From NCBI RefSeq assembly GCF_001078375.1, contig NZ_BBXI01000009.1:124001-188000 (forward strand): a DNA stretch of 64,000 nucleotides. Reading direction: 5' to 3'. Both the position numbers and the translations under genes were made by a program. The stretch is from Veillonella tobetsuensis (GTDB lineage Bacteria > Bacillota > Negativicutes > Veillonellales > Veillonellaceae). How positions within the stretch are numbered: position 1 is the stretch's first letter; each line of letters begins with the position of its first letter. This document shows positions 41,797 through 61,581 of this stretch, one piece after another. Below the pieces are notes generated by a model. The model ran no database searches and was not told where the DNA came from. It saw nothing but the letters and a program-made list of their open reading frames with translations.

Positions 41797-41878
41797 GGAT
41801 TAGAATGGCTCATATTAGAGATGTCCAAAATTTATGGAAAAGCTTATTTTTAAAAGTATATGTTTTGTAGGTGAGATT

Positions 41879-42586: not shown

Positions 42587-42716
42587 TATTTATTTAAGTG
42601 CATTGTTCTAGAACTGAATAAATCTGATTTTTTATTTAGACCTAATATAATAAAGCGGATGTAATAGAATACAGTTCGTTTAACTAATCAAATAATAGTT
42701 TTATAATATAGTAAAC

Positions 42717-42757
42717 GTAGCCCCAATAAAAAGAAACATAAGCGGGGCTACTTTTTT
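42717..42757 (+). terminator. Terminator for secreted-protein gene
   Basis: Eight-pair perfect stem GTAGCCCC / GGGGCTAC around a 19-base loop, followed by six T residues. It shares bases with the opposing terminator at 42732-42798. Confidence 0.85.
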
Positions 42758-42798
42758 ATACCTAAAATCAGTATAAAGGTAGCCTTACTTATGTTTCT
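42732..42798 (-). terminator. Overlapping terminator for TonB-receptor gene
   Basis: On the minus strand the arms 42788-42798 and 42732-42742 (AGAAACATAAG / CTTATGTTTCT) plus GGCTAC / GTAGCC form a long two-part stem, followed by a T run. It uses the same bases as the right arm of the plus-strand terminator, so the two structures exclude each other. Confidence 0.7.
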
Positions 42799-42818
42799 GT
42801 TAATATGATGAGAATCGA

Positions 42819-45098
42819 TTAGAATTTAAACTTCATACTTGCCGAGTACGTACGACCTGCTGTAGCTTCATCGCTAAAGAAGACGCGATTAAATACATTT
42901 TGAACACCAAATTGTAATGTCGCTTCTTTAGATAATTTATAATTTACAGCTACATTAGAAATGAAGTAGCTATCTTCAGAACCGTATTGACCAGTAACAT
43001 CATCTACAGATTGACGACGGCTTACGTATTGTGCATCCCAAAGAGCATCCCATTTGCCACTAGTATATTCAACACCAGCATGGAATGTATGTTTAGGAAT
43101 GTCATAATTCACCTCTGCATATTCGCTTGCATTTGTATTAGGAAGTTCTTTATGTTTAATCCGTCCTGTTTGCCATGTGTAGTTTCCAAATACAGACCAT
43201 TTAGATGACAATTGATGATGAACTTCTAGTTCCACACCGCGGCGAGATTCTTCATCTACGTTATTGTACATTTTATAGTCTACATTGCCACTATTGTCAT
43301 AATATGTAAGATATTTAACTTTGTCCTTAGTTTTGACATAGAATCCAGAGACATTTAATGTAGTCTTTGTATTCCATTCTTTTTTCAAACCAATTTCAAA
43401 TGAATCAGAACGTTCTGGATCTAAGTTAGGATTTGCTTTCACAATATCACTATAACGATAGACTTGGCTCAATGGAGGTGGGTTAAAGGAATGACCATAA
43501 GATGCATACATATTCAAGGAGTCAGTTACATAATACTCAATGGCAAGCTTAGGACTTAATTCTGTATAAGTGCCGGTTCCATGATTCACTGTATCATATC
43601 TGCTATTAGCTTGGTCATAAGTCACATGTTGACCATCGAATTTTTTAAATCTGTCTATACGAAGTCCACTATAAATAGCCCAGTCATGATTAGGACGATA
43701 TGTATCTTGAACAAATAATGCTAGATTACTTGTAGCGCCTTTGTTGATTTCGTACAAACCACCTGGATACGTAGTGGAATCAAAAGAGGAATGGTTTCTC
43801 CAATTCGTTAATTCTCGTCGTTTTTGGTTAAAGCTTTCTTTTTTCCAGTTAAATCCAGCAACAACACTGTGTTTGCCTCTGCGGTCCCATACTTTCTGTA
43901 CATCTAAATTAATTGTTTTTCCAGGATAGAAGGAGTCATCCCCAGATCCACTATAATTTGGCGTATTTGGGTTAGCAGGGCTAGAGAAACCATCTTTTTT
44001 ACGATCTAACATATTGAACGTAGCTTGAATCTTATTTTTGTCATTTTTATATTGTAAGTTATGGGAGTGATACTCTTTTAATCCGTCATAACCTAAATAT
44101 CGACTTGTTCTAAGGGCTACATATTTTTGATTGCTAACTTTGACATTACCTGAAAAAACTGGTTGACCGCCAACTGTAATCGTACTCATTGGATTTTCAT
44201 AAGCATATCTGTTTTTTGTATATAGATATGAATATGTTAACGACTCTCTATCACGAAGCTTCATCGTAATGTAGGTAGAAAGGCTTTTATTGTCATAGGA
44301 TTTATCGCCACGACTACCTAATAGATAGGACCCATCTTTTGTTTGCGGTACAGGATTATCTGGTGTAACCGTCACTGTAGTAGGTCTAATGTTGGCAGCT
44401 CTGCCAGTAATAAAGAAACCAGGGTATCCATCGGTTTTTCTTTGTTCTCCGGACATACCAACGGAGACGCGATCAGATACACGCGCATCAAAACCTAATT
44501 CATTGTTGCGAGTTCCGTGGGAACCATATCCGATTTGTCCATGCCAATGGATATCTTTCACATCTTGTTTAGGTTGTAGCTGTTTCGTTTGAATGCTGAT
44601 AACACCAGCAACACCTCGACCACCATATAAAGAGGAGCTTGGACCACGTACTAACTCAATTCGATTAATTGAATGTACCGGAATAGTTTCCCAATCTACA
44701 CTATTATTAAATGTATTATTCATTGGTACACCATTGAGTAATACTAATGTGTTAGTGGAGTCAAAACCACGAATTTGTAATCCTCCATTTGCCTTTTGGC
44801 TTTTATAAACACCTGGTAGCATTTGTAAAGCATCAGCTACTGTATCAACTCTGCGTGCTTCAATATCTTTAGCTGTAACTACAGAAACGGAACTTGGTGT
44901 TTTTGAAATATCTTCCATTGTTCTTGTAGCTGTTACCGTGATAGTTGGTACTATGGTTTGCTCAGATCCAGCATTGCTGTCAGTAGCATTTACCACTTGA
45001 CCACTCATAGCTGTCAAAATCATAGAAAATAATACGGCCTTTGACGTGCTAAATCGACCCAAACGCGTTACATTTCGCTTACTTATACTTTTTCTCAT
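42819..45098 (-). CDS. TonB-dependent outer-membrane receptor, 759 aa
   Basis: Energy-coupled uptake receptor, probably for a siderophore, haem or cobalamin. A long signal peptide (ends near MSGQVVNA) is followed by a TonB-box-like IVPTITVTATR, a plug domain (about residues 65-175: PSSVSVVTAKDIEARRVDTVADALQMLPGV, GGLQIRGFDSTNTLVLLNGVP, INRIELVRGPSSSLYG) and a 22-strand-type barrel ending in ASMKFKF with a terminal Phe. Length is typical. ATG 45098 is eight bases from AGGG; GTG 45104 is too close. Ligand cannot be assigned. It is divergent from an adhesin gene. Confidence 0.93.
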   Translation of the reverse strand: MRKSISKRNVTRLGRFSTSKAVLFSMILTAMSGQVVNATDSNAGSEQTIVPTITVTATRTMEDISKTPSSVSVVTAKDIEARRVDTVADALQMLPGVYKSQKANGGLQIRGFDSTNTLVLLNGVPMNNTFNNSVDWETIPVHSINRIELVRGPSSSLYGGRGVAGVISIQTKQLQPKQDVKDIHWHGQIGYGSHGTRNNELGFDARVSDRVSVGMSGEQRKTDGYPGFFITGRAANIRPTTVTVTPDNPVPQTKDGSYLLGSRGDKSYDNKSLSTYITMKLRDRESLTYSYLYTKNRYAYENPMSTITVGGQPVFSGNVKVSNQKYVALRTSRYLGYDGLKEYHSHNLQYKNDKNKIQATFNMLDRKKDGFSSPANPNTPNYSGSGDDSFYPGKTINLDVQKVWDRRGKHSVVAGFNWKKESFNQKRRELTNWRNHSSFDSTTYPGGLYEINKGATSNLALFVQDTYRPNHDWAIYSGLRIDRFKKFDGQHVTYDQANSRYDTVNHGTGTYTELSPKLAIEYYVTDSLNMYASYGHSFNPPPLSQVYRYSDIVKANPNLDPERSDSFEIGLKKEWNTKTTLNVSGFYVKTKDKVKYLTYYDNSGNVDYKMYNNVDEESRRGVELEVHHQLSSKWSVFGNYTWQTGRIKHKELPNTNASEYAEVNYDIPKHTFHAGVEYTSGKWDALWDAQYVSRRQSVDDVTGQYGSEDSYFISNVAVNYKLSKEATLQFGVQNVFNRVFFSDEATAGRTYSASMKFKF

Positions 45099-45104
45099 AC
45101 ACAC

Positions 45105-45366
45105 GACCCTTTACATTATAAAATAAAAATAATATGCACTATCTTAAGTATATCATTGGACTATATCTTTTAAAAATTCTACATTATGAATACTGGTTAT
45201 ATACTTATAAATACCGATTATATTCAAAAAGCTTATAAAATCAGTGCCTTTGGCCTTCATCTGACTTGTAGTAGATATACTATTTTATGCAAATGCTGCA
45301 TATTATACCAATAGGGGTATTAGTAAAACTTATAAACATATGAATTTATTTCATTAATATAAAATA
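45105..45366. other. Divergent intergenic region with 21-bp-spaced repeat
   Basis: Non-coding, strongly AT-rich. It contains AATACTGGTTATAT (45189-45202) and AATACCGATTATAT (45210-45223), near-identical and exactly 21 bases apart, that is, on the same helix face. TTATAA occurs many times in the region. A minus-strand TATAAT lies near 45118-45123. No clear Fur-type 19-bp palindrome is seen. Likely holds control elements for the receptor gene. Confidence 0.5.
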
Positions 45367-45395
45367 TTGAACAACTTATAAAATTTTCTTATAAT
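45367..45395 (+). promoter_or_regulatory. Promoter of trimeric autotransporter gene
   Basis: TTGAAC at 45367-45372 and TATAAT at 45390-45395 with a 17-base spacer. The start codon is 135 bases downstream, giving a leader of roughly 125 bases. Confidence 0.7.
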
Positions 45396-45530
45396 GAGCT
45401 TATCTTATGTATATCTTGCAAAATAAAATGTTCTTTTTAGTGAATTTGTATGTATCTATTAGTGAATGTAACTAAGAAAATTTTATGGAGTAAGAGATTG
45501 AGTATAGTTATAGAGAAGGAAGAGAGAGAC

Positions 45531-47099
45531 ATGTTTACTATGAACAAATTGAATTCTCAACAACAAAATGGCAAGAAGGTAAGACGTGTAAGTGCATCGT
45601 TAACGGCTTGTGTGTTTGCATTAACCTTAGGATCTGTTGCCGTGTTAACTGCCCCAACTGTAGAGGCAGCTGGTCAAGTCATAGGCGGCTATGCTGCTGG
45701 TAATCAGGCATTAGGTGACGGCAGTGTTGTCGTAAGTGGAGGTAAAGATAAAGAGCCTAATGTTGCAGAAGGTGAAAATAGTGCTGTACTTGCAGGTACG
45801 ATGAATGCAGCAGAAGGATCATATACAGCTATTGTAGGTGGTTTTAAAAATATAGTTCACGAAGAGATTAAAAGTGGTGCTATTCTTGGTGGTACAAAGA
45901 ACCAAATTGAAGCTGTTGGTTCTTTAGTGGGTAATTATGCAACAATCAGCGGTGGGGAAGATAATATTGCGTATGGTGAATCTTCTTCTATTTCTGGTGG
46001 TAATGCCAATGGTACCTATGGGTTACACAGCTCTATTGCTGGTGGTCGTGGCAATAATGCAGGCGGTGAAATTGGTTCCGTTATTGGGGGATCACAAAAT
46101 AATGCAGATGGTCATGGCAGTACCCTCGCTGGTGGCTTAGGTAATACCGGTGTAGGCATGTGGTCCTCCGTATTTGGGGGCAGCAAAAATGAAGCTGTAG
46201 GTGTTGGTGCGTCCATTCTTGGTGGCGGTGGCCGTGAATTTACAGGTCGCAGATTTGTTAATCATAAAAATATTGCAAATGGTGAATACAGTACAATTGT
46301 AGGTAGTCGCGATGGAAGAACTGTAGGAAATGGTAGTACTGTTGTTGGTGGTTCTAATGGTCTAACACTTGGTGTAGCATCTACATCTATCGGTGGCGGA
46401 TTTACAGGTTCTCATGCAGAGAACAGTTTAGCCTTAGGTCATAAGGCAGGAACGACTGTTAAATATGGCACTGCTATCGGTTATGAAAGCGTAGCTACAG
46501 AAGAAGGCACAATTGCATTTGGTCATGATGCTGGTGATGTTTCTGGTTACACAGTAAAATATCCAGATAAAGAAATCACCACACACTTAGGTTATAAAAA
46601 AACTGTGCCAGATTATGATAAAGAGCCTACAGTAACGCCTACTACATATTCAGATGCTAAATATAATCGTTTGGTGAAAGTTGCTGATGGTGTTGATGCA
46701 CATGATGCAGCTACAGTAGGTCAATTGGAAAATGCTATTAGTCAAGTGCAATCAGTTGGTACAAATATAGAAACTACAGTTAATAAAGCGACTGCATCTA
46801 GTTATGCATTAGCTGCATTACAACCAAACTTCTCAGAAGGTGAAACTGGATTGGGTGTAGCCGTTGGCTTTGGTCATTATCATGGTAAAACAGCAACTGC
46901 TTTAGGTGCTTACTACCGTCCAAACCGCAATGTACAATTTAATGTAGGTACTGTGGTTGGCAATGGTAACCAAGGCTTTAACGGTGGCCTTAGCTTTAAA
47001 GTAGGCCCTGAATCTAAAACAGCTCCATCCTCTACAGATGCTAGAATTGCTCAACTGGAAAAACGTATCCAAGAATTAGAGCAAGCTAGAAATAATTAG
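45531..47099 (+). CDS. YadA-like trimeric autotransporter adhesin, 522 aa
   Basis: Surface adhesin of type Vc secretion. A long signal peptide (about residues 1-44, cleavage near VEAAG) is followed by a head of YadA-like left-handed repeats with recurrent GG, N-x-A-x-G and SS-I/V-x-GG motifs (about 50-330). A neck-like segment (NRLVKVADGVDAHDAATVGQLENA, about 378-400), a short coiled coil and the membrane anchor (about 400-492, SYALAALQPNFSEGETGLGVAVG to GGLSFKVG) come next. About 30 residues then follow the last anchor strand, including a heptad-like helix (ARIAQLEKRIQELEQA). ATG 45531 matches the binding site aaggaagagag; the reading from 45450 is non-coding upstream. Confidence 0.9.
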   Translation: MFTMNKLNSQQQNGKKVRRVSASLTACVFALTLGSVAVLTAPTVEAAGQVIGGYAAGNQALGDGSVVVSGGKDKEPNVAEGENSAVLAGTMNAAEGSYTAIVGGFKNIVHEEIKSGAILGGTKNQIEAVGSLVGNYATISGGEDNIAYGESSSISGGNANGTYGLHSSIAGGRGNNAGGEIGSVIGGSQNNADGHGSTLAGGLGNTGVGMWSSVFGGSKNEAVGVGASILGGGGREFTGRRFVNHKNIANGEYSTIVGSRDGRTVGNGSTVVGGSNGLTLGVASTSIGGGFTGSHAENSLALGHKAGTTVKYGTAIGYESVATEEGTIAFGHDAGDVSGYTVKYPDKEITTHLGYKKTVPDYDKEPTVTPTTYSDAKYNRLVKVADGVDAHDAATVGQLENAISQVQSVGTNIETTVNKATASSYALAALQPNFSEGETGLGVAVGFGHYHGKTATALGAYYRPNRNVQFNVGTVVGNGNQGFNGGLSFKVGPESKTAPSSTDARIAQLEKRIQELEQARNN

Positions 47100-47173
47100 A
47101 AAAAAATAGATTAGATAAAATAAAAGTATTTTATATAGATTTTATCGAGTAGTAGGGAACATCCTTAATGTTT

Positions 47174-47209
47174 ATAGCACTAACTATGAAAATAGTTAGT
47201 GCTATTTTA
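47174..47209 (+). terminator. Terminator after autotransporter gene
   Basis: Perfect 14-pair stem ATAGCACTAACTAT / ATAGTTAGTGCTAT closed by a GAAA tetraloop, followed by TTT. It marks the boundary between core genome and defence island. Confidence 0.85.
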
Positions 47210-47262
47210 TATATATGACTTTTCTGAAGGAAAATAATTCTGTAAGTTTATTCATAAATAGA

Positions 47263-47291
47263 TTTTCATAGAATATGGTTTCTTATATAAT
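47263..47291 (+). promoter_or_regulatory. Promoter of helicase-type III operon
   Basis: TTTTCA at 47263-47268 and TATAAT at 47286-47291 with a 17-base spacer. The sequence between 47261 and 47292 recurs with few changes before the GmrSD-like gene (58778-58809). Confidence 0.65.
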
Positions 47292-47355
47292 ATAAATATA
47301 AGTGTTACAGCAGACTATAATGGGGGAAATTATTCAGAGGTAAGGGGTTATACTG

Positions 47356-50300
47356 ATGGATGTAAAAATTTTTGATAATATTAATGACATTGTTCGTGAT
47401 GATATGATTTCTACAATAAATAAGGGGAGTAAGATATCAATAGCTGCTGCTTGCTTTTCAATCTATGCTTATAAAGAATTGAAGGATCAGCTAGAACAAA
47501 TAGATGAGTGTAGATTTATTTTTACAGCACCGACATTTATTAAAGAAAAAACAGAAAAACAAAAGAGAGAGTTTTATATTCCTAGATTAAATCGTGAAAA
47601 TAGCTTATATGGTACAGAGTTTGAATTGAAGCTACGTAACGAAATGAATCAGAAAGCAATAGCAAAAGAATGTGCAGATTGGATTAAACGAAAAGCAATC
47701 TTTAAGTCTAATATTACTGGGGAGAATATGACTGGCTTTGTAAATGTAACAAGTTCTAATTCTGCTACTACTTATATGCCTATTAATGGTTTTACAACCG
47801 TAGATATTGGCTGTGAACGTGGTAATAATACTTATAATATGGTTAATCGTTTTGAATCCCCGTTTGCTGATTCGTACATCAATTTATTTGAAGGCCTATG
47901 GAATGATAAAAATAAACTTCAAGATGTTACGGATATTGTTATAGACAATATGACTTCTGTTTATAATGAAAATTCACCAGAGTCTATTTATTTCTTGATT
48001 TTATATCATGTCTTTAGTGAGTTTCTAAATGATATCTCCACTGATGAATTACCAAATGAAGCTACAGGGTTTAAACAAAGTAAAATTTGGAATATGCTAT
48101 ATGACTTTCAACGAGATGCAGTACTTGCCATTATAAACAAGTTAGAACGATATAATGGATGTATTCTTGCTGATAGTGTTGGATTAGGGAAAACTTTCAC
48201 TGCATTAGCAGTTGTAAAATACTATGAGAATCGAAATAAAAGTGTTCTAGTTCTTTGTCCTAAAAAATTAGCAGAGAATTGGAATACATATAAAGATAAT
48301 TATGTAAATAATCCAATTGCTGGAGATCGACTTAATTATGATGTCTTATTCCATACGGATTTATCTAGACCTGGTGGCTTTTCAAATGGCCTTGATTTAA
48401 ATCGGTTAAATTGGGGAAACTATGATTTAGTTGTTATAGATGAATCACATAATTTCCGTAATGGTGTTGGCACGCATGCTAATACGGTGGAGAATCGTTA
48501 TGTAAAACTGATGGATAAAATTATTAGGTCTGGTGTAAAGACAAAAGTATTAATGCTTTCCGCAACACCTGTAAATAATAGATTTATTGATTTAAAAAAC
48601 CAATTAGCCATAGCTTATGAAGGAGATACCTTCCTTATTGATAATAAATTAGGTACCACAAAATCTATTGATGAAATATTTAGACAAGCACAACGAGCAT
48701 TTAATACTTGGAGTGAATTAGATGTAGCTGATCGAACAACAGATGCTTTATTAAGAACATTAGATTTTGATTTCTTTGAATTACTAGATAGTGTTACGAT
48801 TGCACGGTCTAGAAAGCATATTGCAAAATATTACGATACTGCCGATATTGGTAAGTTTCCTATAAGGATGAAACCTATTTCTTTGAGGCCTGTACTTACT
48901 AATTTAGAAACAGCTACTAATTATAATCAGATTTATGAAGAGTTAAGTAAGCTTTCCCTTTGTATCTATACACCATCTAACTATATTTTCCCAAGTAAAA
49001 TTCAAAAATATATTGACCTAACACATAATAAAGGGAATGAGTTAACCCAAACGGGTCGTGAGCAAGGTATTCGTAAATTAATGAGTGTTAATTTGTTGAA
49101 ACGTTTAGAAAGCTCTGTTAATTCATTCCAACTTACCTTACAACGTATTTATAATCTTATTAATGATACTGTAGACAAGATAAACCGATTTGAGCAATAT
49201 GGTACAAGTAGTATTGATATGTATGAATCTACTGATACCGAGTGGGATATCGATGATAGTAATACGGAATATTTTACTGTTGGAAATAAGGTTCAAATTG
49301 ATTTAGCAGATATGGATTATAAAACATGGCGGGCTGAACTTACTTTAGATATTGAGGTATTAAATAGTTTGATGAGTATGTTGAATGTAATAACACCTAA
49401 ATATGATGGTAAGTTACAATCATTGCTTAAGGTTATATCTGAGAAAATAGAAAATCCAATTAATATTAATAATAAGAAGGTTCTTATTTTTTCTGCCTTC
49501 TCAGATACTGCTGAGTATTTATATGAACATGTTAGTGCTTATATAAAGGAAAAATATGGACTTAATACAGCTGTTATAACTGGTTCTATTGATGGTAAAA
49601 CTACTATTAAGAATTTTAAGGCTACCCTTAATAATGTATTGACATGTTTTTCTCCTATTTCAAAAGATAAATCTGTTTTATTGCCGAATAGTAATGATGA
49701 AATTGATATATTAATTGCTACAGATTGTATATCCGAAGGTCAAAATTTACAAGATTGTGACTGTGTTATTAACTATGATATTCATTGGAACCCAGTACGT
49801 ATCATCCAACGATTTGGTCGTGTGGACCGTATTGGTAGTAAAAATGAAAGTATCAAACTTGTTAACTTCTGGCCTGATATGGATTTAGATGAATATATTA
49901 ACCTTAAAGGTCGTGTAGAAACAAGGATGAAAATATCTATTATGTCATCAACGGGAGATGACGATCTTATTAACGCTGAGGAGAAGGGTGATTTAGAGTA
50001 TAGAAAGCAGCAGCTAAAGCGTTTACAGGAAGAAGTAGTAGATATAGAAGATATGTCTACTGGTATTTCTATTATGGATCTAGGATTAAATGAGTTTAGA
50101 CTTGATCTTTTAGAGTATATAAAAAATCATGGGGATATGGATACAAAACCAAAAGGGTTACATGCTGTTGTTTCATCATCTGAAGAACTTCCAGAAGGTG
50201 TAATATTTGTACTGAAGAATGTTAATAACTCTGTTAATATAGATAATCAAAACAGAATCCATCCATTTTATATGGTTTATATTGGTATGGATGGAGAAAT

Positions 50301-50592
50301 TATTTGTGACTATCTAAATCCAAAACAATTGCTTGATGATATCAGATTATTGTGTAGAGGCAAAAAAGAACCGATTGTAGATTTGTGTCAAAAGTTTAAT
50401 GAAGAAACGAATGATGGGAAAGATATGCAGGAATTATCAAATCTTCTTCGTGAAACAATTTATTCTATTATCGATACTAAAGAAGAAAGTGATATAGATA
50501 GCTTATTTACTGTTGGTGGAACCTCCGCACTTATCTCAGTAGTATCTGGCTTAGATGATTTTGAGCTCATTTCTTTCTTAGTAGTTAAATAA
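47356..50592 (+). CDS. Snf2/HepA-like helicase with PLD-like N-terminal region, 1078 aa
   Basis: First gene of a four-gene restriction operon. Superfamily 2 helicase motifs are complete: Walker A GLGKT (residues 276-280), DESH box (362-365), LMLSATPVNN, and motif VI QRFGRVDRIG (818-827) preceded by ATDCISEGQNLQDCDCVINYD. The N-terminal 230 residues resemble the phospholipase D-like region seen before some Snf2-type helicases, but no HKD catalytic motif is visible, so it is likely a binding or regulatory domain. The C-terminal 200 residues are unassigned. ATG 47356 follows aagggg. The operon partners (DUF4391-like, Mod, Res) argue for a role in anti-phage restriction as a DNA translocase. Confidence 0.88.
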   Translation: MDVKIFDNINDIVRDDMISTINKGSKISIAAACFSIYAYKELKDQLEQIDECRFIFTAPTFIKEKTEKQKREFYIPRLNRENSLYGTEFELKLRNEMNQKAIAKECADWIKRKAIFKSNITGENMTGFVNVTSSNSATTYMPINGFTTVDIGCERGNNTYNMVNRFESPFADSYINLFEGLWNDKNKLQDVTDIVIDNMTSVYNENSPESIYFLILYHVFSEFLNDISTDELPNEATGFKQSKIWNMLYDFQRDAVLAIINKLERYNGCILADSVGLGKTFTALAVVKYYENRNKSVLVLCPKKLAENWNTYKDNYVNNPIAGDRLNYDVLFHTDLSRPGGFSNGLDLNRLNWGNYDLVVIDESHNFRNGVGTHANTVENRYVKLMDKIIRSGVKTKVLMLSATPVNNRFIDLKNQLAIAYEGDTFLIDNKLGTTKSIDEIFRQAQRAFNTWSELDVADRTTDALLRTLDFDFFELLDSVTIARSRKHIAKYYDTADIGKFPIRMKPISLRPVLTNLETATNYNQIYEELSKLSLCIYTPSNYIFPSKIQKYIDLTHNKGNELTQTGREQGIRKLMSVNLLKRLESSVNSFQLTLQRIYNLINDTVDKINRFEQYGTSSIDMYESTDTEWDIDDSNTEYFTVGNKVQIDLADMDYKTWRAELTLDIEVLNSLMSMLNVITPKYDGKLQSLLKVISEKIENPININNKKVLIFSAFSDTAEYLYEHVSAYIKEKYGLNTAVITGSIDGKTTIKNFKATLNNVLTCFSPISKDKSVLLPNSNDEIDILIATDCISEGQNLQDCDCVINYDIHWNPVRIIQRFGRVDRIGSKNESIKLVNFWPDMDLDEYINLKGRVETRMKISIMSSTGDDDLINAEEKGDLEYRKQQLKRLQEEVVDIEDMSTGISIMDLGLNEFRLDLLEYIKNHGDMDTKPKGLHAVVSSSEELPEGVIFVLKNVNNSVNIDNQNRIHPFYMVYIGMDGEIICDYLNPKQLLDDIRLLCRGKKEPIVDLCQKFNEETNDGKDMQELSNLLRETIYSIIDTKEESDIDSLFTVGGTSALISVVSGLDDFELISFLVVK

Positions 50593-50603
50593 GAAGGAGA
50601 TAT

Positions 50604-51260
50604 ATGATGCTAGGTTTATCAAAAGCTACAGAATTTAATCGGCGTATTCCTAAAGCTAAATTCTATGAGAATATAAATATTACGACTTCTTTAAAAAGAT
50701 TGTTTGTAGATCATGTAAAGAATATTTATTGGAGAAATAAAATTGCGTCTACAACTACTAATTTGTCTGCAGGAAAATACGTAACAGAGATTGAAGTATT
50801 TGAAGTCAATCTTAATAGTCCTCAAGTTGATATAGACTTATTAAAATGTATTGATAGTGTAATTCCGTACCATATTCTTTATATCTTAGAATACAATGGT
50901 AAGTATCAGGCTTGGATTGGATATAAAGAAACTATGGATATATACAAGAAAAGATCTAAAGTGGATAGATACTATCATACAAATTGGTTTGAAGAAACGG
51001 AATTAGTAGTAAGACTTGAAGGTCTTAACCTTGATGATGTATATGAAAACTTAGTACGTCAAATTGCTGGTGATAAGTTACAATCTGATAGTTCTACTGA
51101 GAGTTTGAAACAGTCTGTAGAACGTGATAAAGAAATAGAAAGTTTGCAAAAGCAAATTAGTATATTACAAAATAAAATACGAAAAGAAAAGCAGCTAAAT
51201 AAACAAATAGAAATAAACACTGAGTTGAAGAAGTTAAGAAGTGCATTGGAGAATATATAA
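50604..51260 (+). CDS. DUF4391-like protein, 218 aa
   Basis: A small partner in the restriction operon. The N-terminal part (LGLSKATEFNRRIPKAKFYEN, then VKNIYWRNKIASTTTNLSAG and VTEIEVFEVNLNSPQVDIDLLKCIDSVIPYHILYIL) follows the pattern of DUF4391 proteins, which often sit between a helicase and a type III methylase gene. The C-terminal 50 residues form a heptad-rich coiled coil (DKEIESLQKQISILQNKIRKEKQ), likely for oligomerisation or docking. Biochemical function is not known. Start may be ATG 50604 or ATG 50607; AAGGAG lies at 50594-50599. Stop overlaps the mod start. Confidence 0.8.
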   Translation: MMLGLSKATEFNRRIPKAKFYENINITTSLKRLFVDHVKNIYWRNKIASTTTNLSAGKYVTEIEVFEVNLNSPQVDIDLLKCIDSVIPYHILYILEYNGKYQAWIGYKETMDIYKKRSKVDRYYHTNWFEETELVVRLEGLNLDDVYENLVRQIAGDKLQSDSSTESLKQSVERDKEIESLQKQISILQNKIRKEKQLNKQIEINTELKKLRSALENI

Positions 51261-53302
51261 TGGAAAAAATGAGAATGGAATCAGTAGATATGACTGAAAA
51301 AAATATAGAAAAAATGGAATTATTGTTTCCTAATTGTATTACAGAAGCTTTAGATAAAAGTGGAAAGTTAAAAAAGGCTATAAATTTTGAAGTGTTAAAA
51401 CAAATGCTTTCTGATGAAATTGTGGATGGTGATGAAGCCTATGAGTTTACATGGGTCGGTAAAAAAGCTGCTATCGTTGAAGCAAATAAGTCGATTCGAA
51501 AAACCTTACGTCCTTGTATTGAGGAAAGTATTGAATGGGATGATACTGAAAACTTATATATTGAAGGTGATAATCTTGAGGTATTGAAACTTTTACAGGA
51601 AAGTTATCTTGGAAAAGTAAAAATGATATATATAGATCCCCCATATAATACTGGAAATGATTTTATTTATAGAGATAACTTTTCATTAAGTATTAGTGAA
51701 TACGAAGAACAATTAGGCGTATTAGATGAAGGGGGAAATATATTATTTAAAAATACATATAATAATGGTAGATTCCACTCTGATTGGTGTTCCATGATTT
51801 ATTCACGTTTAATGTTGGCTAGAAATCTCTTATCTAATGATGGTGCAATATTTATTAGTATTGATGATAGCGAATTAGAAAATTTAAAGAAAATATGTGA
51901 TGAAGTTTTTGGTGCCGATAATTTTATTAATATAATTTCATTAAAACTTAAAAATATAGCAGGTGCTTCTGGAGGAGGACAGGATAAACGATTAAAAAAG
52001 AATATGGAGTTTATTCTTCTTTACGCAAAGAATTATAAGGCTATAGAACCATTTGAGAATATTTATTCATATACACCTATTAGTCAATTGGTTGAATTTT
52101 ATAGGAAAAATGGAATTAGTTGGAAATATACATCCGCATTAGTGAATTCTGGCGATAAAATATATGTTGCTTCAACAATTGATGGAGATGGTAATGAAAT
52201 AAAAATATATAAACGTGAGAACTATAAGATTGAATCAATTTCATCAATTATGAAATCAGAAAATATAACTGAAAAAGAGGCTTATGATAAATATTCCAAT
52301 TGTATTTTTCAGACTGCTATGCCACAAAGTTCTATTAGACCAAGAGTAATAGAGAAGCTTAAAGAAATTGGGATAGATAGTGATTTATACTCTATAGAAT
52401 ATATTCCTAAAACTGGAAGAAATAAAGGTAAATTATATGAGCAGTTTTATAAAGGGAAAAATTTCCGTTTATTTGCATGGCTTAGAGATGTAGCCGAAGA
52501 AATAGATGGTGTTCTATATAAAAAAGATTTACAAGGAACTTATTGGGATTTTGTAGGAGAAATTAACAATTTAACGAAAGAAGGTGATGTCTCTTTTTTA
52601 AATGGTAAAAAACCAGTAAAACTATTGATGCAAATGCTGAAGATGATTACGAATGAAAATGATATTGTATTGGATTTCTTTTCAGGAAGTGCAAGTACAG
52701 CACATGCTGTGATGCAACTAAACTTAGAGGATAATGGAAACCGAAAATTTATCATGGTTCAAATCCCTCAAGAAATAGATGATGACTCTGAAAGTACTTA
52801 TAGTAATATATGTGAATTAGGCAAAGCTAGAATTAGACGGTCTGGTAAAAAGATTTTAAAAGAAAATACAGAAAAAGTGGCTGTTCAAAATTTAGATGTA
52901 GGATTTCGTGTTTTTAAGTTAGATGATTCTAATATGACCAATGTATTTTATTCAGTAGATGATTATTCACAAGGCTTACTTTCAAATTTAGAAACAAATA
53001 TCAAGTCTGATCGTAATGACCTTGATTTATTATTTGGATGTCTTATTGAATGGGGATTACCATTATCTTTACCATATAATTCAGAAAAGATAGAAGGGTG
53101 TACTGTACATAATTATAATAATGGAGATTTAGTGGCATGTTTCAATGAAAATATACCAGACTCAGTTATTAAACATATTGCAAAAAAACAACCTCTCCGT
53201 GCAGTTTTTAGAGATAGTAGTTTTGCTAATAGTCCTTCTAAAATTAATGTAGGTGAGATCTTTAAGTCCTTAGCTCCGGATACAAAAGTAAAAGTTATTT
53301 AG
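51260..53302 (+). CDS. mod: Type III DNA methyltransferase subunit Mod, 680 aa
   Basis: Site-specific N6-adenine methylase of a type III restriction-modification system; it also provides target recognition for Res. Catalytic motif DPPYNTGNDF (D126-P-P-Y129) precedes the SAM-binding motif DFFSGSAS (472-479), the beta-class order. The region between (about 200-440) is the variable target-recognition domain. The length is normal. ATG 51260 overlaps the preceding stop (TAATG). No simple-sequence repeat tract that would signal phase variation was seen. The gene is complete, so the host should carry the methylation mark. Confidence 0.95.
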   Translation: MEKMRMESVDMTEKNIEKMELLFPNCITEALDKSGKLKKAINFEVLKQMLSDEIVDGDEAYEFTWVGKKAAIVEANKSIRKTLRPCIEESIEWDDTENLYIEGDNLEVLKLLQESYLGKVKMIYIDPPYNTGNDFIYRDNFSLSISEYEEQLGVLDEGGNILFKNTYNNGRFHSDWCSMIYSRLMLARNLLSNDGAIFISIDDSELENLKKICDEVFGADNFINIISLKLKNIAGASGGGQDKRLKKNMEFILLYAKNYKAIEPFENIYSYTPISQLVEFYRKNGISWKYTSALVNSGDKIYVASTIDGDGNEIKIYKRENYKIESISSIMKSENITEKEAYDKYSNCIFQTAMPQSSIRPRVIEKLKEIGIDSDLYSIEYIPKTGRNKGKLYEQFYKGKNFRLFAWLRDVAEEIDGVLYKKDLQGTYWDFVGEINNLTKEGDVSFLNGKKPVKLLMQMLKMITNENDIVLDFFSGSASTAHAVMQLNLEDNGNRKFIMVQIPQEIDDDSESTYSNICELGKARIRRSGKKILKENTEKVAVQNLDVGFRVFKLDDSNMTNVFYSVDDYSQGLLSNLETNIKSDRNDLDLLFGCLIEWGLPLSLPYNSEKIEGCTVHNYNNGDLVACFNENIPDSVIKHIAKKQPLRAVFRDSSFANSPSKINVGEIFKSLAPDTKVKVI

Positions 53303-53313
53303 GAGAGAAAGAG

Positions 53314-56300
53314 ATGAAACTACAATTTAAGCATCAAAAATTCCAAGCAGATGCTGCGAAAGCCGTGGTTGATGTATTTGCGGGGCAGCCTTATCTAACT
53401 CCATCATATATGATGGATAGAGGTTCTGGATATATCCAGCAATCACTAACAGAGGATTCAGATTTTACTGGCTTTAGTAACCAGAAAATAGCAAAAGAAT
53501 TAAATGATGAATTAATTCTTAATCGAATAAAGAAAATACAACGAGATAATCAAATTCAATCATCTGATAAACTAGAAGGTAGATATAATTTAACTATTGA
53601 AATGGAGACTGGTGTTGGTAAGACTTATACATATATTAAAACTATGTATGAGCTTAATAAACATTATGGGTGGAGTAAATTCATAATTGTTGTGCCCAGT
53701 ATTGCCATACGAGAAGGCGTTTATAAAACTTTTCAAGTTACACAAGAGCATTTTGCCGAAGAATATGGTAAAAAGATTCGATTCTTTATATATAATTCTG
53801 CTCAATTAACTGAAATAGATCGTTTTGCATCTGATAGTTCAATTAATGTAATGATTATTAATTCTCAAGCATTTAATGCAAAGGGTAAGGATGCTAGACG
53901 CATTTATATGAAATTAGATGAGTTCAGATCCCGTCGTCCTATAGATATTATTGCAAAAACAAACCCTATATTAATTATTGATGAACCTCAATCTGTAGAA
54001 GGGAAACAGACAAAAGAAAGTTTAAAACAATTTAACCCATTAATGACTCTTCGTTATTCTGCAACACATAAGAGTGATAGTATATATAACATGATTTATC
54101 GGTTGGATGCATTAGAAGCTTACAATAAACATCTTGTTAAAAAGATTTCCGTTAAAGGAATTACTGAATCAGGAAGTACAGCCACTGAAAGTTATATTTA
54201 TCTGGAAGGTATTAATCTATCAAAGTCAGCACCTACAGCAACTATTCAGTTTGACTATAAAGGTGCTAAAGATATTCGAAAGATAACTAGAGTTGTTTCG
54301 GAAGGCTATAACCTCTATGATAACTCAGGCCAAATGGAAGAATATAAAGAGGGGTTTGTTGTATCTAGAATCGATGGTCGCGATGACTCAGTTGAGTTCA
54401 TTAACGGGGTAAAGATCTATGCTGGTGATGTAATTGGTAAAGTAAATGAAGATCAACTTCGACGCATTCAAATAAGAGAAACCATTTTATCTCATATTGA
54501 AAGAGAACGAGACCTATTTTATAAGGGGATAAAAGTTTTATCTTTATTCTTTATAGATGAGGTAGCAAAGTATAAGCAATATGATGCTTCTGGAGAGCCT
54601 ATTAATGGTATTTATGCGGATATGTTTGAAGAGGAATATAAGGATATTGTTAATAATCTTCAAACAAAATTTGGTGAAGATGAGTATTTAAAGTATATTA
54701 ATGCTATTTCTGAGTCTTCTACACATGCTGGTTACTTCTCCATTGATAAAAAAGGAAAAATGGTTGATTCTAAGCTAAAAGATAAAAAAGAGATGACATC
54801 TGATGATGTTGATGCGTTTGATCTTATTATGAAGAATAAAGAACTTCTTTTAGATAGAGACCCTAAGAAATCTCCTGTTAGATTTATCTTTTCTCACTCA
54901 GCTTTACGTGAAGGCTGGGATAATCCAAATGTCTTTCAAATTTGTACATTAAAACAAAGCAGTAGTGATGTGCGTAAACGTCAAGAAGTAGGTCGAGGCC
55001 TTCGTCTTTGTGTCAATCAAGATGGAGAACGCATGGATACGAATGTACTTGGTAATGATGTACATAATGTAAACGTTCTTACTGTAATAGCTAGTGAAAG
55101 CTACGATAGTTTTGCAAAAGGCTTACAGGCTGAAATTGCTGAGGCGGTTGCTGATAGACCTAAATCAATCACGCCTGAATTATTTATTGGAAAAGTAATT
55201 AAAGATATTCATAATAATGAACAGGTTATAGATGATAAATTGGGACGTGCTATTCATTTTGACCTTATTGTAAATAGATACATTGATAAAACTGGTGCTC
55301 TTACTGATAAATATTATGACGATAAGTCTAGTGGTCTAATACAGGTTGCTGATGAAGTAGCTGACTCCAGAGATGCAGTTATAGGAATCATTGATTCCAT
55401 TTATGATGCTAAATCAATACAATTTGAAAATGCACGCAGTAATAATGTAGAGCTACACTTAGACGAAGATAAAGTTTCTATGCCTGAATTCAAGGCATTA
55501 TGGAAAAAGATAAACTCCAAATCAGTGTATATCGTTGATTTTGATACGGATGAGCTTGTTAGAAATGCAATTTTAGCTTTAGATAGCAAACTTCGAGTTT
55601 CAAAACTTTTCTATAGAGTTGAATCTGGTACAATGAAGCAGATTAAATCAAAAGAGGAGTTAGAAACATCAGGTTCTTTTGTAAAAGAATCTGCTTCAAC
55701 TTATGGAAGTAAAAATGCTGTAAACGCTAATGTTAAATATGATTTAGTCGGTAAACTAGTGGATGAGACCGGACTTACTCGAAAAGCAGTTATACAAATT
55801 CTTCAAGGTATTGAAACTGCAGTATTTAATCAATTCAAAGATAATCCAGAAGAGTTTATTATTAAAGCTGCATCACTTATAAATGACGAAAAAGCAACAG
55901 CAATTATTGAGCATATTACATATGATGTATTAGATGAAAAATACGATACTAATGTATTTACAGATCCAACAATTAAAGGACGTTTAGGCACGAATGCAAT
56001 GAAAGCTAATAAGCATTTATATGATCATATTATTTATGACTCAACAAATGAGAAAAACTTTGCATCTGAATTGGATATAAACTCTGATGTAGCTGTCTAT
56101 GTTAAATTACCTGACGGATTTTATATTTCTACGCCGGTTGGTCGTTATAATCCGGATTGGGCTATAGCTTTTTATGAAGGTACAGTAAAACATATTTATT
56201 TTATTGCTGAAACAAAAGGATCTATGAATTCAATGCAACTTCGTTTGATTGAAGAATCCAAAATACATTGTGCAAGAGAACACTTTAAAGCAATCAGTAA

Positions 56301-56364
56301 AGGAGACGTTGTTTATGATGTTGTTGATAGCTATAAGTCTCTACTTGATATTGTGACTAAGTAA
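53314..56364 (+). CDS. res: Type III restriction enzyme subunit Res, 1016 aa
   Basis: ATP-dependent restriction subunit acting with Mod. Helicase motifs: Walker A TGVGKT (99-104), DEPQ box (D223-Q226), SHSALREGWDNPNVFQ, and RQEVGRGLRL. The C-terminal endonuclease domain shows PD948 and E966-T-K968 (NPDW, 17 residues, ETKG), the PD-(D/E)xK arrangement of type III enzymes. All key residues are present, so it should be active. It lies 11 bases after mod. Length is typical. Confidence 0.95.
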   Translation: MKLQFKHQKFQADAAKAVVDVFAGQPYLTPSYMMDRGSGYIQQSLTEDSDFTGFSNQKIAKELNDELILNRIKKIQRDNQIQSSDKLEGRYNLTIEMETGVGKTYTYIKTMYELNKHYGWSKFIIVVPSIAIREGVYKTFQVTQEHFAEEYGKKIRFFIYNSAQLTEIDRFASDSSINVMIINSQAFNAKGKDARRIYMKLDEFRSRRPIDIIAKTNPILIIDEPQSVEGKQTKESLKQFNPLMTLRYSATHKSDSIYNMIYRLDALEAYNKHLVKKISVKGITESGSTATESYIYLEGINLSKSAPTATIQFDYKGAKDIRKITRVVSEGYNLYDNSGQMEEYKEGFVVSRIDGRDDSVEFINGVKIYAGDVIGKVNEDQLRRIQIRETILSHIERERDLFYKGIKVLSLFFIDEVAKYKQYDASGEPINGIYADMFEEEYKDIVNNLQTKFGEDEYLKYINAISESSTHAGYFSIDKKGKMVDSKLKDKKEMTSDDVDAFDLIMKNKELLLDRDPKKSPVRFIFSHSALREGWDNPNVFQICTLKQSSSDVRKRQEVGRGLRLCVNQDGERMDTNVLGNDVHNVNVLTVIASESYDSFAKGLQAEIAEAVADRPKSITPELFIGKVIKDIHNNEQVIDDKLGRAIHFDLIVNRYIDKTGALTDKYYDDKSSGLIQVADEVADSRDAVIGIIDSIYDAKSIQFENARSNNVELHLDEDKVSMPEFKALWKKINSKSVYIVDFDTDELVRNAILALDSKLRVSKLFYRVESGTMKQIKSKEELETSGSFVKESASTYGSKNAVNANVKYDLVGKLVDETGLTRKAVIQILQGIETAVFNQFKDNPEEFIIKAASLINDEKATAIIEHITYDVLDEKYDTNVFTDPTIKGRLGTNAMKANKHLYDHIIYDSTNEKNFASELDINSDVAVYVKLPDGFYISTPVGRYNPDWAIAFYEGTVKHIYFIAETKGSMNSMQLRLIEESKIHCAREHFKAISKGDVVYDVVDSYKSLLDIVTK

Positions 56365-56396
56365 AACTAAATAGATATTTTATCGGGAGGATAATA

Positions 56397-57193
56397 ATGG
56401 GAGTTAGTAAGTTGATTAATTTATAAATGGAGATGATTCTTTGGCTAATTATGCATATAGAGATAAAGAAAGACGACAAATAATATTAGCAAATGAGGCT
56501 CTTGAGGAAGATAGGAATAAGTCATTTTACTGTCCAAATCCACGATGTAATAGTAAATTATTTATATGTGCTGTTGATGGCTCTCGGAAAGCATATTTTC
56601 GAGCAACTAAATCTGCTTATAAACACATTGATAATTGTCCTTATGCAAATAGTTCAGTCACTTTTGATGAGAAGATATTTAATCAGTCAAATTTTTCTTT
56701 TGAAAATGCAATACAAAATCTTTTAGTTGAGAATAACTCAAAACCTGTAATGAGTGACTCTAAAAGCACTTCTTGTGGTGAACATATTAATCATACATTA
56801 ATAACAATTAGGCAGATATATTCTATGTGTAAACAATTTCCTCCTAATTACTCATATGGAAATGAGAAAATTGGGAAAATGATTTTAGACGATAGAACTG
56901 AATACTGGTATCCTAAAGGTGTTTTTGGCTTTAAAATAATTGAGTCTTGTGTAAAAGGTCGCTTTTACGATAATGATAAAAATGAGATTTATTTAGTAGC
57001 TCCTATAGCAAATCCCAATTATCATTTTATATTATCTATTCCTGATATAAACCTTTATAGAAAAATAAGAAATATGGTATTTGAAAATAAAGATAAATTT
57101 ATTATAGTTGCTGGACAATGGAATTTATCTAAAGCAGATGGAAGGACAATAAAATCAATTATACATAGTAATAAACAAATAACTATTATATAA
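56397..57193 (+). CDS. Zinc-finger protein with apparent 5' frameshift, about 250-266 aa
   Basis: The open frame runs from TTG 56441 (250 residues, MANYAYRDKERRQIIL). A better initiation site, ATG 56397 after ggagg, encodes MGVSKLINL and stops at 56424. Adding one T in the run at 56420-56422 joins the two into MGVSKLINFINGDDSLANYAYRD, which suggests a one-base deletion. The N-terminal domain has a CHC2-like zinc site, CPNPRC then HIDNC about 30 residues later, as in CoiA-type or RNA/DNA-binding fingers. The rest is unassigned. TTG 56441 with GGAG (56429-56432) may still initiate. Function unknown; its place after res suggests a defence link. Confidence 0.6.
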
Positions 57194-57276
57194 TAATAAA
57201 TAATTTATCGATTATAGATTTTGTTTGGGGATTATATTTTATTTTGAAATATAAAGGTAATTAGGGCGGGTGTTAT

Positions 57277-58326
57277 ATGGAATCAGAAACTATAGTTATT
57301 CCACCAGAAGCAATTGAAGTTGAAACTTTATCTGAGTATCAATCGGACTTATCGGAACATTTTAATGAACTTCCCAAAGTTGCTAAGTCACTATTAAATG
57401 AGGCTAATAATTTATTTTCTAAAATTGAGAATTTATTATATACTACTCCAACTTTAATTAATGTTGTTAAGTCGGCTTTTCCCGATACAATGATACAGGC
57501 TGTTCTTACTAATGAACAGAAAGAAAAAATAGCTAAAGGTGTACTAGAGCTAATGACTAAGAAAGATGGTACTCTTTTGGCGACTCTTGTTGATCCTAAA
57601 ACGAAAAAAGTTATTCATCAGATTCCTCTAGAGTCTATAAAGGTTGGACCTGAAATATCTCAAGCTATGACAAATTTTTCAATGCAAATGCAAATGGCTC
57701 AAATTGCGCAGCAAATTCAAGTAGTACAACATGCTATTGAAGAAGTACGACGTGGTCAAGAGTTTGATCGTTTAGCTACAGCCTATAGTTGTCAACAAAA
57801 GTTGCTTCAAGCATTAGAAATTAAGAGTCCAAGTTTAAAGGAACATGCTTTAATGCAATTAGTTTCTTCTGCTGAAGATAGTAGAAATCTTTTAATGCTT
57901 AGTCAAAAATCAAATATAGAATTTATAAAAAAACAACCTGAAAGCTCCTTTAAAAAATTATTTTCATCTATATCAACAGAAGAAAATGATAAAAGGATAA
58001 GTGATATCAGAGAAAGCCTTAATGCAGTAAATATGGTATCATTTGTACAAGCGATGGCCTATCAAAATCTTGGTGAATATGAGGCTGCTAGGATGAGTCT
58101 GACTTATTATGCTGAATTTATTAAAGATACTTATACCTCAAATCCAGACTTGTTAGATAGATTAGATATGGTTGATCCAAGCACTGAAAATTATTGGACC
58201 AAATCATTACCAGTTATCGAGGAAAAAATTCAAAAACTTCCATATGGGTTTAGTGTGTTAGAAATTAAAAAGATTAAAGGGAGACAAAAGAAAAATGATA
58301 AACGAAAATGTAAAGCGAATTTGTAA
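57277..58326 (+). CDS. Unrecognised helical protein, 349 aa
   Basis: Not recognised. The product is soluble and mostly helical: an N-terminal acidic region, a central Gln/Met-rich segment (FSMQMQMAQIAQQIQVVQHAIEEVRRGQ, about residues 129-156) that looks like a coiled coil, and a C-terminal segment with TPR-like pattern (FVQAMAYQNLGEYEAARMSLTYYAEF). It ends with a very basic tail (KIKGRQKKNDKRKCKANL). Its 3' end overlaps the next small gene by 32 bases, so the two are translationally coupled. It may be a host-specific or defence-associated two-gene unit; no catalytic motif is visible. Confidence 0.72.
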   Translation: MESETIVIPPEAIEVETLSEYQSDLSEHFNELPKVAKSLLNEANNLFSKIENLLYTTPTLINVVKSAFPDTMIQAVLTNEQKEKIAKGVLELMTKKDGTLLATLVDPKTKKVIHQIPLESIKVGPEISQAMTNFSMQMQMAQIAQQIQVVQHAIEEVRRGQEFDRLATAYSCQQKLLQALEIKSPSLKEHALMQLVSSAEDSRNLLMLSQKSNIEFIKKQPESSFKKLFSSISTEENDKRISDIRESLNAVNMVSFVQAMAYQNLGEYEAARMSLTYYAEFIKDTYTSNPDLLDRLDMVDPSTENYWTKSLPVIEEKIQKLPYGFSVLEIKKIKGRQKKNDKRKCKANL

Positions 58327-58480
58327 AGGAGAAGGTTGTAAAAAGGAATTACCTGTTGGGTATAAATACGAGAAATGTGAGTCATGTCGAAATAAATTTA
58401 TTGAATCTGGGCAAGATATATTTAAGTTTGGTGTGACAGCACTAGCAGCTGTTGCATTATTTGTTATGAGTAAAAAATAA
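58295..58480 (+). CDS. Zn-ribbon plus membrane-anchor small protein, 61 aa
   Basis: Four cysteines at residues 10, 15, 28 and 31 (ICKGEGC and CESC) form a likely zinc ribbon, and residues about 43-58 (FKFGVTALAAVALFVM) are a single C-terminal membrane helix ending in SKK. It overlaps the end of the 349-residue gene by 32 bases; AAGGGAG lies 11 bases before ATG 58295. Tail-anchored Zn-ribbon proteins of this size often tether or sense a partner; here the natural partner is the overlapping gene's product. Confidence 0.72.
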   Translation: MINENVKRICKGEGCKKELPVGYKYEKCESCRNKFIESGQDIFKFGVTALAAVALFVMSKK

Positions 58481-58779
58481 TTGGTTTAAATCGCAATATG
58501 TAATTAAATAATTTCATATATATTGTTTAATTAACATAGATAGGAAAGACTTAATGTAGTACTCTGTAATTTAAATTTTTATATAGTTCATATAATTAAT
58601 AGCAAAACCCTTCGCTATGATGCGAAGGGTTTTGCTATACGCTAATACTTATAAATGCAATATAGTTGAACTAAATATTAGTTTGCTTATGAAGAAGGGT
58701 GCAGCTTGTATAGTTGTACCTTTTTCTTTACATAATTTTTGGTAGAAACTATATTATTTACATTCATTGATTAAATTGA
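58481..58779 (+). terminator. Intergenic region with two terminator-type hairpins
   Basis: About 355 non-coding bases separate the 61-residue gene from the GmrSD-like gene. At 58600-58637 is a perfect 16-pair stem TAGCAAAACCCTTCGC / GCGAAGGGTTTTGCTA with a six-base loop, with T-rich arms working in both directions. At 58695-58725 an imperfect stem AAGG-TGCAGCT / AGTTGTA-CCTT is followed by TTT. The rest is AT-rich with no coding potential seen until the promoter at 58780. Confidence 0.7.
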
Positions 58780-58808
58780 TTTTCATAGAGTAGGGTTTCT
58801 TATATAAT
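58780..58808 (+). promoter_or_regulatory. Promoter of GmrSD-like operon
   Basis: TTTTCA at 58780-58785 and TATAAT at 58803-58808 with a 17-base spacer. Nearly identical to the promoter at 47263-47291. Confidence 0.65.
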
Positions 58809-58851
58809 AGATTTGTAAGTATTTTTCTAGAATGTAGTGGGGAAATGGGAA

Positions 58852-60645: not shown

Positions 60646-60657
60646 GAGAAATGTAAC

Positions 60658-61452: not shown

Positions 61453-61517
61453 TTCTTGATTTAATAATGATGACCCATATATACGTATAATAAAGAAACC
61501 TATGTCATAATGGCGTT

Positions 61518-61541
61518 TGTAGTGATCCCAAAAAGTTAGAC
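61518..61541 (+). repeat. Left terminal inverted repeat of IS
   Basis: TG-x-A-xx-GA-x-CCC followed by A-x-GTTAGAC, matching the inward-read right end at 63058-63081 at most positions. Confidence 0.75.
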
Positions 61542-61581
61542 TTTTATTTCCGAGTAACCTAAACTGGTTGCTCGGAATTTT

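Follow-up and report, generated by a model that had tools for sequence, protein, structure and literature searches.

A widespread type III restriction-modification subtype with an accessory Snf2-family motor and a DUF4391 protein in Veillonella tobetsuensis

Genes and domains of the operon

A stretch of 64,000 nucleotides from Veillonella tobetsuensis (assembly GCF_001078375.1, contig NZ_BBXI01000009.1, positions 124,001 to 188,000; hereafter the window) carries at 47356-56364 an intact operon of four genes, all on the + strand, in which a Snf2-family ATPase (HEL) and a DUF4391 protein precede the two subunits of a type III restriction-modification (R-M) system, Mod and Res. HEL (47356..50592; 1078 amino acids, aa) has the Pfam domains SNF2-rel_dom and Helicase_C and is followed after 11 base pairs (bp) by the DUF4391 gene (50604..51260; 218 aa), which matches PF14335 with 189 bits against a cut-off of 29.9. 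The last base of this gene overlaps the start of Mod (51260..53302; 680 aa), a type III DNA amino-methyltransferase with PF01555 N6_N4_Mtase, a PADLOC MTase_III match of 643 bits and the motif DPPYN, and after another 11 bp comes the restriction subunit Res (53314..56364; 1016 aa) with PF04851 ResIII, PF19778 RE_endonuc and a PADLOC REase_III match of 952 bits. A preliminary description of this DNA had the genes mostly overlapping or within 12 bases, of which the spacing is right and the overlap amounts to a single one of 1 bp; its starting point, 47263, is 93 bp upstream of the earliest start codon in the HEL frame (47356). Its central observation, an extra ATPase and a DUF4391 protein built into a complete type III operon, holds, and the four genes are intact. 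The window operon itself is free of additional cargo genes, and the host genome of 2.16 Mb has one DUF4391 match and one RE_endonuc match. The nearest named relative found was Veillonella sp. T11011-6, whose HEL is 95% identical.

The hallmark of type III enzymes is ATP-dependent cutting about 25 bp from the site, for which two inverted unmodified sites are required. For HEL, Mod and Res, the calls of Pfam, PADLOC and NCBIfam concur (Snf2-type ATPase, type III methyltransferase, type III restriction subunit), and the DUF4391 protein is recognised by Pfam alone of the three. Mod has the motifs of an amino-methyltransferase, with a variable target-recognition region inside it (about residues 200-450), and among solved structures in the PDB its relatives are 6k0w and the Mod of EcoP15I (4zcf). 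Res, which adjoins mod, has the superfamily 2 (SF2) ATPase motifs of a motor followed by a C-terminal PD-(D/E)XK endonuclease domain (about 899-1005), and its solved relative is the Res of EcoP15I (4zcf_C, E 1.9e-65).

HEL consists of an N-terminal domain (about 1-235), a Snf2 core (about 240-860) and a C-terminal domain of about 200 aa. The motifs GLGKT, DESH and QRFGRVDRIG are all present in its translation and are kept in all 104 aligned HEL proteins (the third as QRFGR[IV]DR[IL]G), so that the earlier view of HEL as an intact ATPase stands. No match to the HEL profile was found among PDB sequences at 1e-10. When the AlphaFold2 model was compared with solved structures by VIA-align, Snf2 motors aligned over residues of about 225-914, and the 50 rows listed were Snf2-type motors, including Chd1, ISW1, Rad54 and SWR1, with Z of 15.7-18.1 (best row: Z 18.1, root-mean-square deviation 5.7, 450 aligned). 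Foldseek ranked RapA first and Mot1 fourth.

The N-terminal domain lay outside this whole-protein fold search. It had been described as PLD-like, which is only weakly borne out. The best PADLOC match of HEL is C3a139 ('HKD+Snf2', 392 bits), and this model aligns nearly end to end, N-terminus included, in three relatives (L147, L149 and Escherichia coli CFT073). For residues 1-235 of the window HEL no Pfam match was obtained even at E 5, and PLDc_2 was matched, weakly, in one of seven HEL N-termini tried (E 0.1). The motif HxKxxxxD occurs in the first 240 aa of two of the 104 HEL proteins and is absent from the window protein. A PLD-like N-terminal domain is thus plausible from these alignments, degenerate at best; an active PLD nuclease at the front of HEL was rejected since the HKD motif is missing from the window protein and nearly all relatives. 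C3a139 is a model name only, with no function or system attached, and its HKD is absent from the window HEL.

The AlphaFold2 model of the DUF4391 protein is of high confidence (predicted local distance difference test, pLDDT, 94.2; predicted template modelling score 0.88) and has an alpha/beta domain (about 1-145) followed by a C-terminal helical hairpin or coiled coil (about 143-217). Against PDB sequences its profile matched two designed coiled coils only, both at the C-terminus (E 1e-4 and 0.057). Among the full-text literature searched, in which subscription papers and preprints were thinly covered, no described function of DUF4391 was found, and the name occurred in one paper only, as a table line in the part of it that was available (PMC7784981).

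Linkage, spread and evolution

The association of HEL and DUF4391 with mod-res was followed in two samples from the phylum of the window (200 relatives and 398 genomes), which overlap in part; shared genomes were counted once and HEL matches were limited to E 1e-60. DUF4391 was matched in 31 of the 200 relatives (26 above the cut-off) and 34 of the 398 phylum genomes, HEL in 20 and 34, and RE_endonuc in 49 and 63, respectively. PF19778 matches below 85 bits, DUF4391 matches below 26 bits and the second pieces of broken genes (in genomes G114 and G355) were dropped before the pooled counts. In the pooled samples DUF4391 lies within 3 kilobases (kb) of HEL for 46 of 47 near-full HEL genes, and the lone exception (G502) sits on a contig of 4,753 bp that ends 1.5 kb past HEL. 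A strong Res lies within 16 kb in 39 of the 47. Contig ends truncate seven of the other eight: G428 and G322 still show Mod and the beginning of Res, G352 shows Mod, and the contigs of G048, G502, G521 and G561 end sooner. The last of the eight, G159, has undergone rearrangement: HEL and DUF4391 lie together with a Mod fragment, and a Mod-Mod-Res stretch is found elsewhere. None of the 47 is demonstrably free of mod-res. A truncated HEL of 657 aa (L172) does stand alone. Only three of 52 DUF4391 matches of at least 85 bits have no HEL within 3 kb (two at contig ends, one with HEL fragments), and four weak DUF4391 matches below the Pfam cut-off (L056-L059) have no operon gene beside them. The linkage of HEL, DUF4391, mod and res is far beyond chance and near-absolute.

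The dependence is one-way, of HEL-DUF4391 on mod-res and not the reverse. At most 42 of the 91 strong Res genes lack both HEL and DUF4391 within 16 kb. The number is a maximum, as some of them are at contig ends, the neighbours were inspected for 27 of the 42, and for nine HEL-less Res genes (G048, G159, G349, G423, G428, G502, G509, G521, G561) the genome has HEL or DUF4391 elsewhere. The remaining 49 of the 91 adjoin HEL or DUF4391, and because of this a large share of what is annotated as type III R-M may differ from the textbook two-gene enzyme.

With its accessory Snf2 motor and DUF4391 partner, the operon is a real, intact and widespread type III subtype. In a scan of 84,980 species genomes, from which the best 80 of at least 580 HEL relatives were kept, 63 of the 80 loci have all four genes and the other 17 records end within 1.9 kb past the last gene found. 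These 80 loci come from 11 phyla, chiefly Bacillota (45) and Bacteroidota (23), and many are in metagenome bins. Conserved linkage in other genomes, for which the preliminary description had asked, is thus present, and no clear case of HEL-DUF4391 without mod-res came up. In E. coli, HEL-like DNA was detected in 68 of 5,426 genomes, just 10 of which cover 80% of the query. The chromosomes of CFT073, 0H26 and NCTC11023 have the order HEL, DUF4391, mod, res, with mod interrupted by IS30 in 0H26. A four-gene operon lies on an E. coli plasmid (L147:3231-12562), and a Listeria plasmid and an Acinetobacter plasmid carry the operon with mod split or interrupted.

Several local variations were seen on the way. 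The record of Erysipelothrix phage phi1605 (L149) contains the whole operon, with mef(A)/msr(D) and a number of recombinase genes close by. The closest Veillonella relative (L067:13905-17655, the same as L035) has two full-length tandem mod genes between DUF4391 and res. A regulator gene directly precedes HEL in three E. coli loci (L195:8099-9004, L197:8099-9004 and L198:8172-8336); these are of WYL/YafY type or another helix-turn-helix type, or a small mad1-like helix-turn-helix protein, and none is listed in the window.

Conservation within the operon was measured on 61 related loci, the window and 60 others in which each gene is present in a single full-length copy. Conservation is highest in HEL and evolution fastest in DUF4391, the median pairwise identities being 0.63 for HEL, 0.49 for Res, 0.46 for Mod and 0.29 for DUF4391. 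Mod has a hypervariable centre (median identity 0.25 in the target-recognition region vs 0.53 in the core), and the lowest 50-aa mean of the commonest-residue share is 0.06 in Mod and 0.50 in HEL; no comparable hypervariable block was found in HEL or Res of these loci. DPPYN is kept in 88 of 88 Mod proteins, and GxGKT, DEPQ and PD...ExK in 79 of 79 Res proteins. Four E. coli loci, three on plasmids and one on a chromosome, were compared: identity is 99.3-99.7% for HEL, 99.7-99.9% for Res and 92-98% for DUF4391, but falls to 10-26%, depending on the pair, in the least similar 50-aa block of Mod. Since this block diverges while HEL and Res are more than 99% identical, the sequence specificity resides in Mod.

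Partial correlations of pairwise divergence in the same 61 loci were highest for Mod-Res (0.52-0.66), HEL-DUF4391 (0.46) and DUF4391-Res (0.40-0.47), weaker for HEL-Res (0.30-0.31), and close to zero for DUF4391-Mod (0.00-0.03) and HEL-Mod (-0.06 to -0.09). The divergence of DUF4391 thus tracks HEL and Res and not its neighbour Mod, a pattern compatible with DUF4391 as an adaptor between HEL and Res.

Res trees (113 rows with FastTree, 62 rows with a mixture model, the root set on the P1 group) place the Res of phage P1 and four HEL-less loci against all HEL loci and the remaining loci, with support 100. The HEL rows had been gathered by HEL or DUF4391 searches, which biases the proportions on the tree. 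Within the HEL branch most HEL-less or remnant loci stand singly or in pairs next to HEL loci, which on these trees reads as loss of HEL at the tips of the Res branch. In L052, L055, L173, L177 and L186 HEL is lost or broken with Mod and Res of full length; in L047 HEL and Mod are of full length and Res is in two pieces, and in L033, L038 and L044 HEL is intact and Mod is split. Three loci of the HEL branch of Res carry, in place of HEL-DUF4391, a DrmD-like Snf2 helicase gene upstream of mod-res: L156:7485-10331, L180:2-1882 and L182:7797-9110 (in the latter two it is partial as read, with another open reading frame, ORF, between helicase and mod). All three are in the FastTree tree, and L156 and L180 in the mixture-model tree as well. 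Under the P1 rooting, the motor has apparently been swapped for another Snf2 motor in these three loci.

Known systems and the proposed role of HEL and DUF4391

Type III systems with an extra helicase-like ATPase are already known. In the available text of Murray et al. 2021 (PMC8259958), such a gene lies immediately 5' of mod in Eco86II, BspHIV and more than 500 genomes, is dispensable for methylation, and has its function left open. The extra ATPase to which the preliminary description drew attention thus has a precedent in print, in what seems to be another helicase family. The accessible parts of PMC11514479 and PMC13335696 do not mention an additional helicase alongside type III enzymes, and no description of the HEL-DUF4391-Mod-Res operon was found in the full-text search, so that the HEL-DUF4391 version is undescribed in the literature searched. 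The window operon resembles the Eco86II type in that type III Mod and Res are preceded by an intact SF2 ATPase gene without a nuclease motif. It differs in that, in the window as in the four-gene loci, DUF4391 stands between HEL and mod and the ATPase is not immediately 5' of mod.

The chromosome of E. coli NCTC86 has a locus (L201) of a 963-aa DrmD-like Snf2 protein (664 bits), 20 bp, a 1040-aa Mod and a 1126-aa Res, with no DUF4391. We infer from strain and layout that this is Eco86II, and NCTC86 may hold other type III loci. The Snf2 protein of L201 shares with HEL the Snf2 core alone (25% over 608 aa), its Mod matches the Mod profile of the HEL branch weakly (166 bits), and its Res does not match the corresponding Res profile at E 10. 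Identity of HEL with the published Eco86II-type ATPase is accordingly disfavoured, the candidate helicase being DrmD-like with only the Snf2 core in common.

The classical enzymes EcoP1I and EcoP15I have Mod and Res homologous to those of the window. The P1 res gene, however, has neither HEL nor DUF4391 beside it, and P1 Res falls on the other branch of the tree (100% support). DISARM also combines a Snf2 helicase with a methyltransferase, and its DrmD is a distant relative of HEL. It was rejected, as it had been in the preliminary description, since the DrmD equivalog scores 153.1 bits against a cut-off of 610 and MZB/DUF1998 (PF09369) has no match in the whole host genome, the same search being positive in 8 of 14 control genomes. 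The BREX-related systems, according to the accessible part of PMC12839542, group a Snf2 helicase (HKD-fronted in type 2 of types 1-2) and an N6-adenine methyltransferase around a DUF499 ATPase. They are like the window operon in the first two components and differ in their centre, the window operon having a type III Res instead; neither PglZ nor a DUF499/BrxC ATPase was present among the 10 ORFs scanned in 41834-60645.

We tentatively propose that HEL is a sequence-independent motor on double-stranded DNA, coupled to Res by DUF4391 and boosting restriction, a reading that we hold to be nearly an even call. It is built on the gene content, the intact motifs, the near-obligate linkage, the lack of a hypervariable block in HEL, the one-way dependence and the covariation; a physical complex, translocation and an effect on restriction are what it would predict. 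In such a system Mod would mark one strand of a short asymmetric site, and Mod-Res would find unmodified sites, at which Res cuts. HEL, as a Snf2-type translocase without a nuclease of its own, would be coupled to Res through the coiled-coil tail of DUF4391 and act after recognition by Mod, without sequence specificity, to supply powered movement or to clear DNA-bound proteins. Encounters of Mod-Res complexes, or cutting by them, could then be more efficient than in the classical enzymes, where ATP sets off a one-dimensional diffusion between inverted sites (PMC8259958 and PMC12707154, in the parts available). That a DrmD-like Snf2 protein takes the place of HEL-DUF4391 in three loci of the same branch hints that a Snf2 motor as such is required. 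This comes closest to the translocase extending type III restriction that the preliminary description had offered as one possibility, and it remains the best reading, though an inferred one. Its other suggestion, that mod-res was captured by a distinct system, is disfavoured: within this branch there are mod-res pairs whose HEL is lost or only a remnant, but no clear case of intact HEL-DUF4391 lacking mod-res. A bolder version is doubtful: that this is a distinct major type III subtype in which a processive HEL tethered by DUF4391 replaces diffusion by powered translocation, so that inverted pairs of sites are not needed, and in which the operon is a two-slot platform for exchangeable back-up toxins or defence genes.

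Several observations speak against a motor coupled to Res by DUF4391. Since no clear structural relative of DUF4391 was found (Foldseek best E 0.16, VIA-align best Z 4.3), its part as a coupler draws on shape and covariation. The direct HEL-Res covariation (partial 0.30) means that DUF4391 need not be the sole link, and the DUF4391-Res correlation has a half-sample range of 0.16-0.63 in 61 related loci, from which contact is not provable. The HEL model has a mean pLDDT of 73.8. Mod-Res of the HEL branch persists without HEL, and the strong Res genes that have neither HEL nor DUF4391 nearby make up as many as 42 of 91. In addition, partly purified native Eco86II cut DNA, partially, with no peptide of the extra ATPase seen (PMC8259958, available text), a hint that cutting in vitro may not require motors of this kind, though that of Eco86II is probably of another helicase family.

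HEL-DUF4391 could instead restrain or edit restriction, as a remodeller of the RapA or Mot1 kind. By removing Mod-Res or other proteins from the host's own DNA, for instance where it is newly replicated or unmodified, it would avoid self-damage or let the system establish itself in a new host. The Foldseek ranks of RapA and Mot1 fit this, as does the near-absolute tie to mod-res, and establishment would matter to a system found on plasmids, in a phage record and in chromosomal islands. On such an account, the loss of HEL should cost the host as long as Res is active, yet HEL is lost or decayed beside full-length Res and Mod in five loci, and the many Res genes without either partner within 16 kb point the same way; we regard restraint as unlikely. 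Equally unlikely in our view is that HEL-DUF4391 is a second, separate anti-phage effector that uses Mod methylation as a shared self-mark, as has been proposed for the Snf2 helicases of BREX-related systems. The pairing of a Snf2 helicase with an N6-methyltransferase there, one type with an HKD front (PMC12839542, in part), the rank of HEL as the most conserved gene and its nearest PADLOC model, 'HKD+Snf2', would agree with an effector. Still, no nuclease motif was seen in HEL, with HxKxxxxD as rare as stated above, and on contigs that are long enough a near-full HEL is always accompanied by Res, save for the rearranged G159, and never by a methyltransferase alone; in L047 HEL and Mod are full-length and Res is in two pieces.

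A hitch-hiking HEL-DUF4391, carried by the restriction operon with no functional coupling, is the least probable of these explanations and in our opinion very unlikely. The operons do carry cargo, in 37 of 88 junctions between DUF4391 and Mod and in 33 of 83 between Mod and Res. True cargo families, however, vary by locus. HEL-DUF4391 keeps its position throughout, and the conservation of HEL exceeds that of both Mod and Res. The three E. coli chromosomal loci differ in the slot between DUF4391 and Mod (nearly empty in NCTC11023, a 900-aa gene in 0H26, and in CFT073 a short remnant with the same product name as in 0H26), and all three keep HEL-DUF4391. The coupled motor thus remains our preferred reading, and the role of the extra ATPase, left open in print in 2021, is made testable by the E. 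coli versions, in which HEL and Res are more than 99% identical and the specificity of Mod is exchanged, and by the natural HEL-less loci. The DUF4391 family likewise gains a genomic context and a testable role.

Cargo genes and genomic neighbourhood

Cargo was counted as ORFs of at least 90 aa in the junctions of loci with a long HEL, and besides the two slots above, 8 of 99 junctions between HEL and DUF4391 held one. Co-direction with the operon was found for 91 of the 97 junction ORFs, and 86 were scanned further, that is, the 97 less two near-duplicates, six on the opposite strand and three doubtful ones. Among the Pfam matches listed, RhuM (6), YhcG/DUF1016 (6), Fic (6) and Schlafen AlbA_2 (5) recur, and SLATT_4, SMODS (CBASS-like), GmrSD and AbiU2 occur once each. 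Toxins are also known to lie within R-M loci in general (PMC3710099, available in part). Among the PADLOC matches listed, PDC-S05 is present in 7 cargo ORFs. The PDC names probably go back to a preprint about defence genes nested within other immune systems.

Two further loci combine type III genes with other systems. L164:1-9948 has a DrmMII-like cytosine methylase, a full-length DrmD, a type III Mod, a Res and a DrmA-like gene cut at the end of the locus, that is, a DISARM-like locus with type III mod-res inside. In L154:4324-9531, a locus without HEL-DUF4391, genes that by eye are McrBC-like abut a mod that seemingly has no N-terminus.

In the window, two co-directional ORFs of 250 and 349 aa follow res at 56441-58326, with no Pfam, PADLOC or NCBIfam match at E 0.001. 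Farther downstream, within 58837-63023, lies a GmrSD gene (Pfam), and because of this gene and the two ORFs without Pfam families the neighbourhood of the operon looks defence-like. The same stretch contains, by eye, an ORF resembling an ADP-ribosylglycohydrolase and an IS3-like transposase pair.

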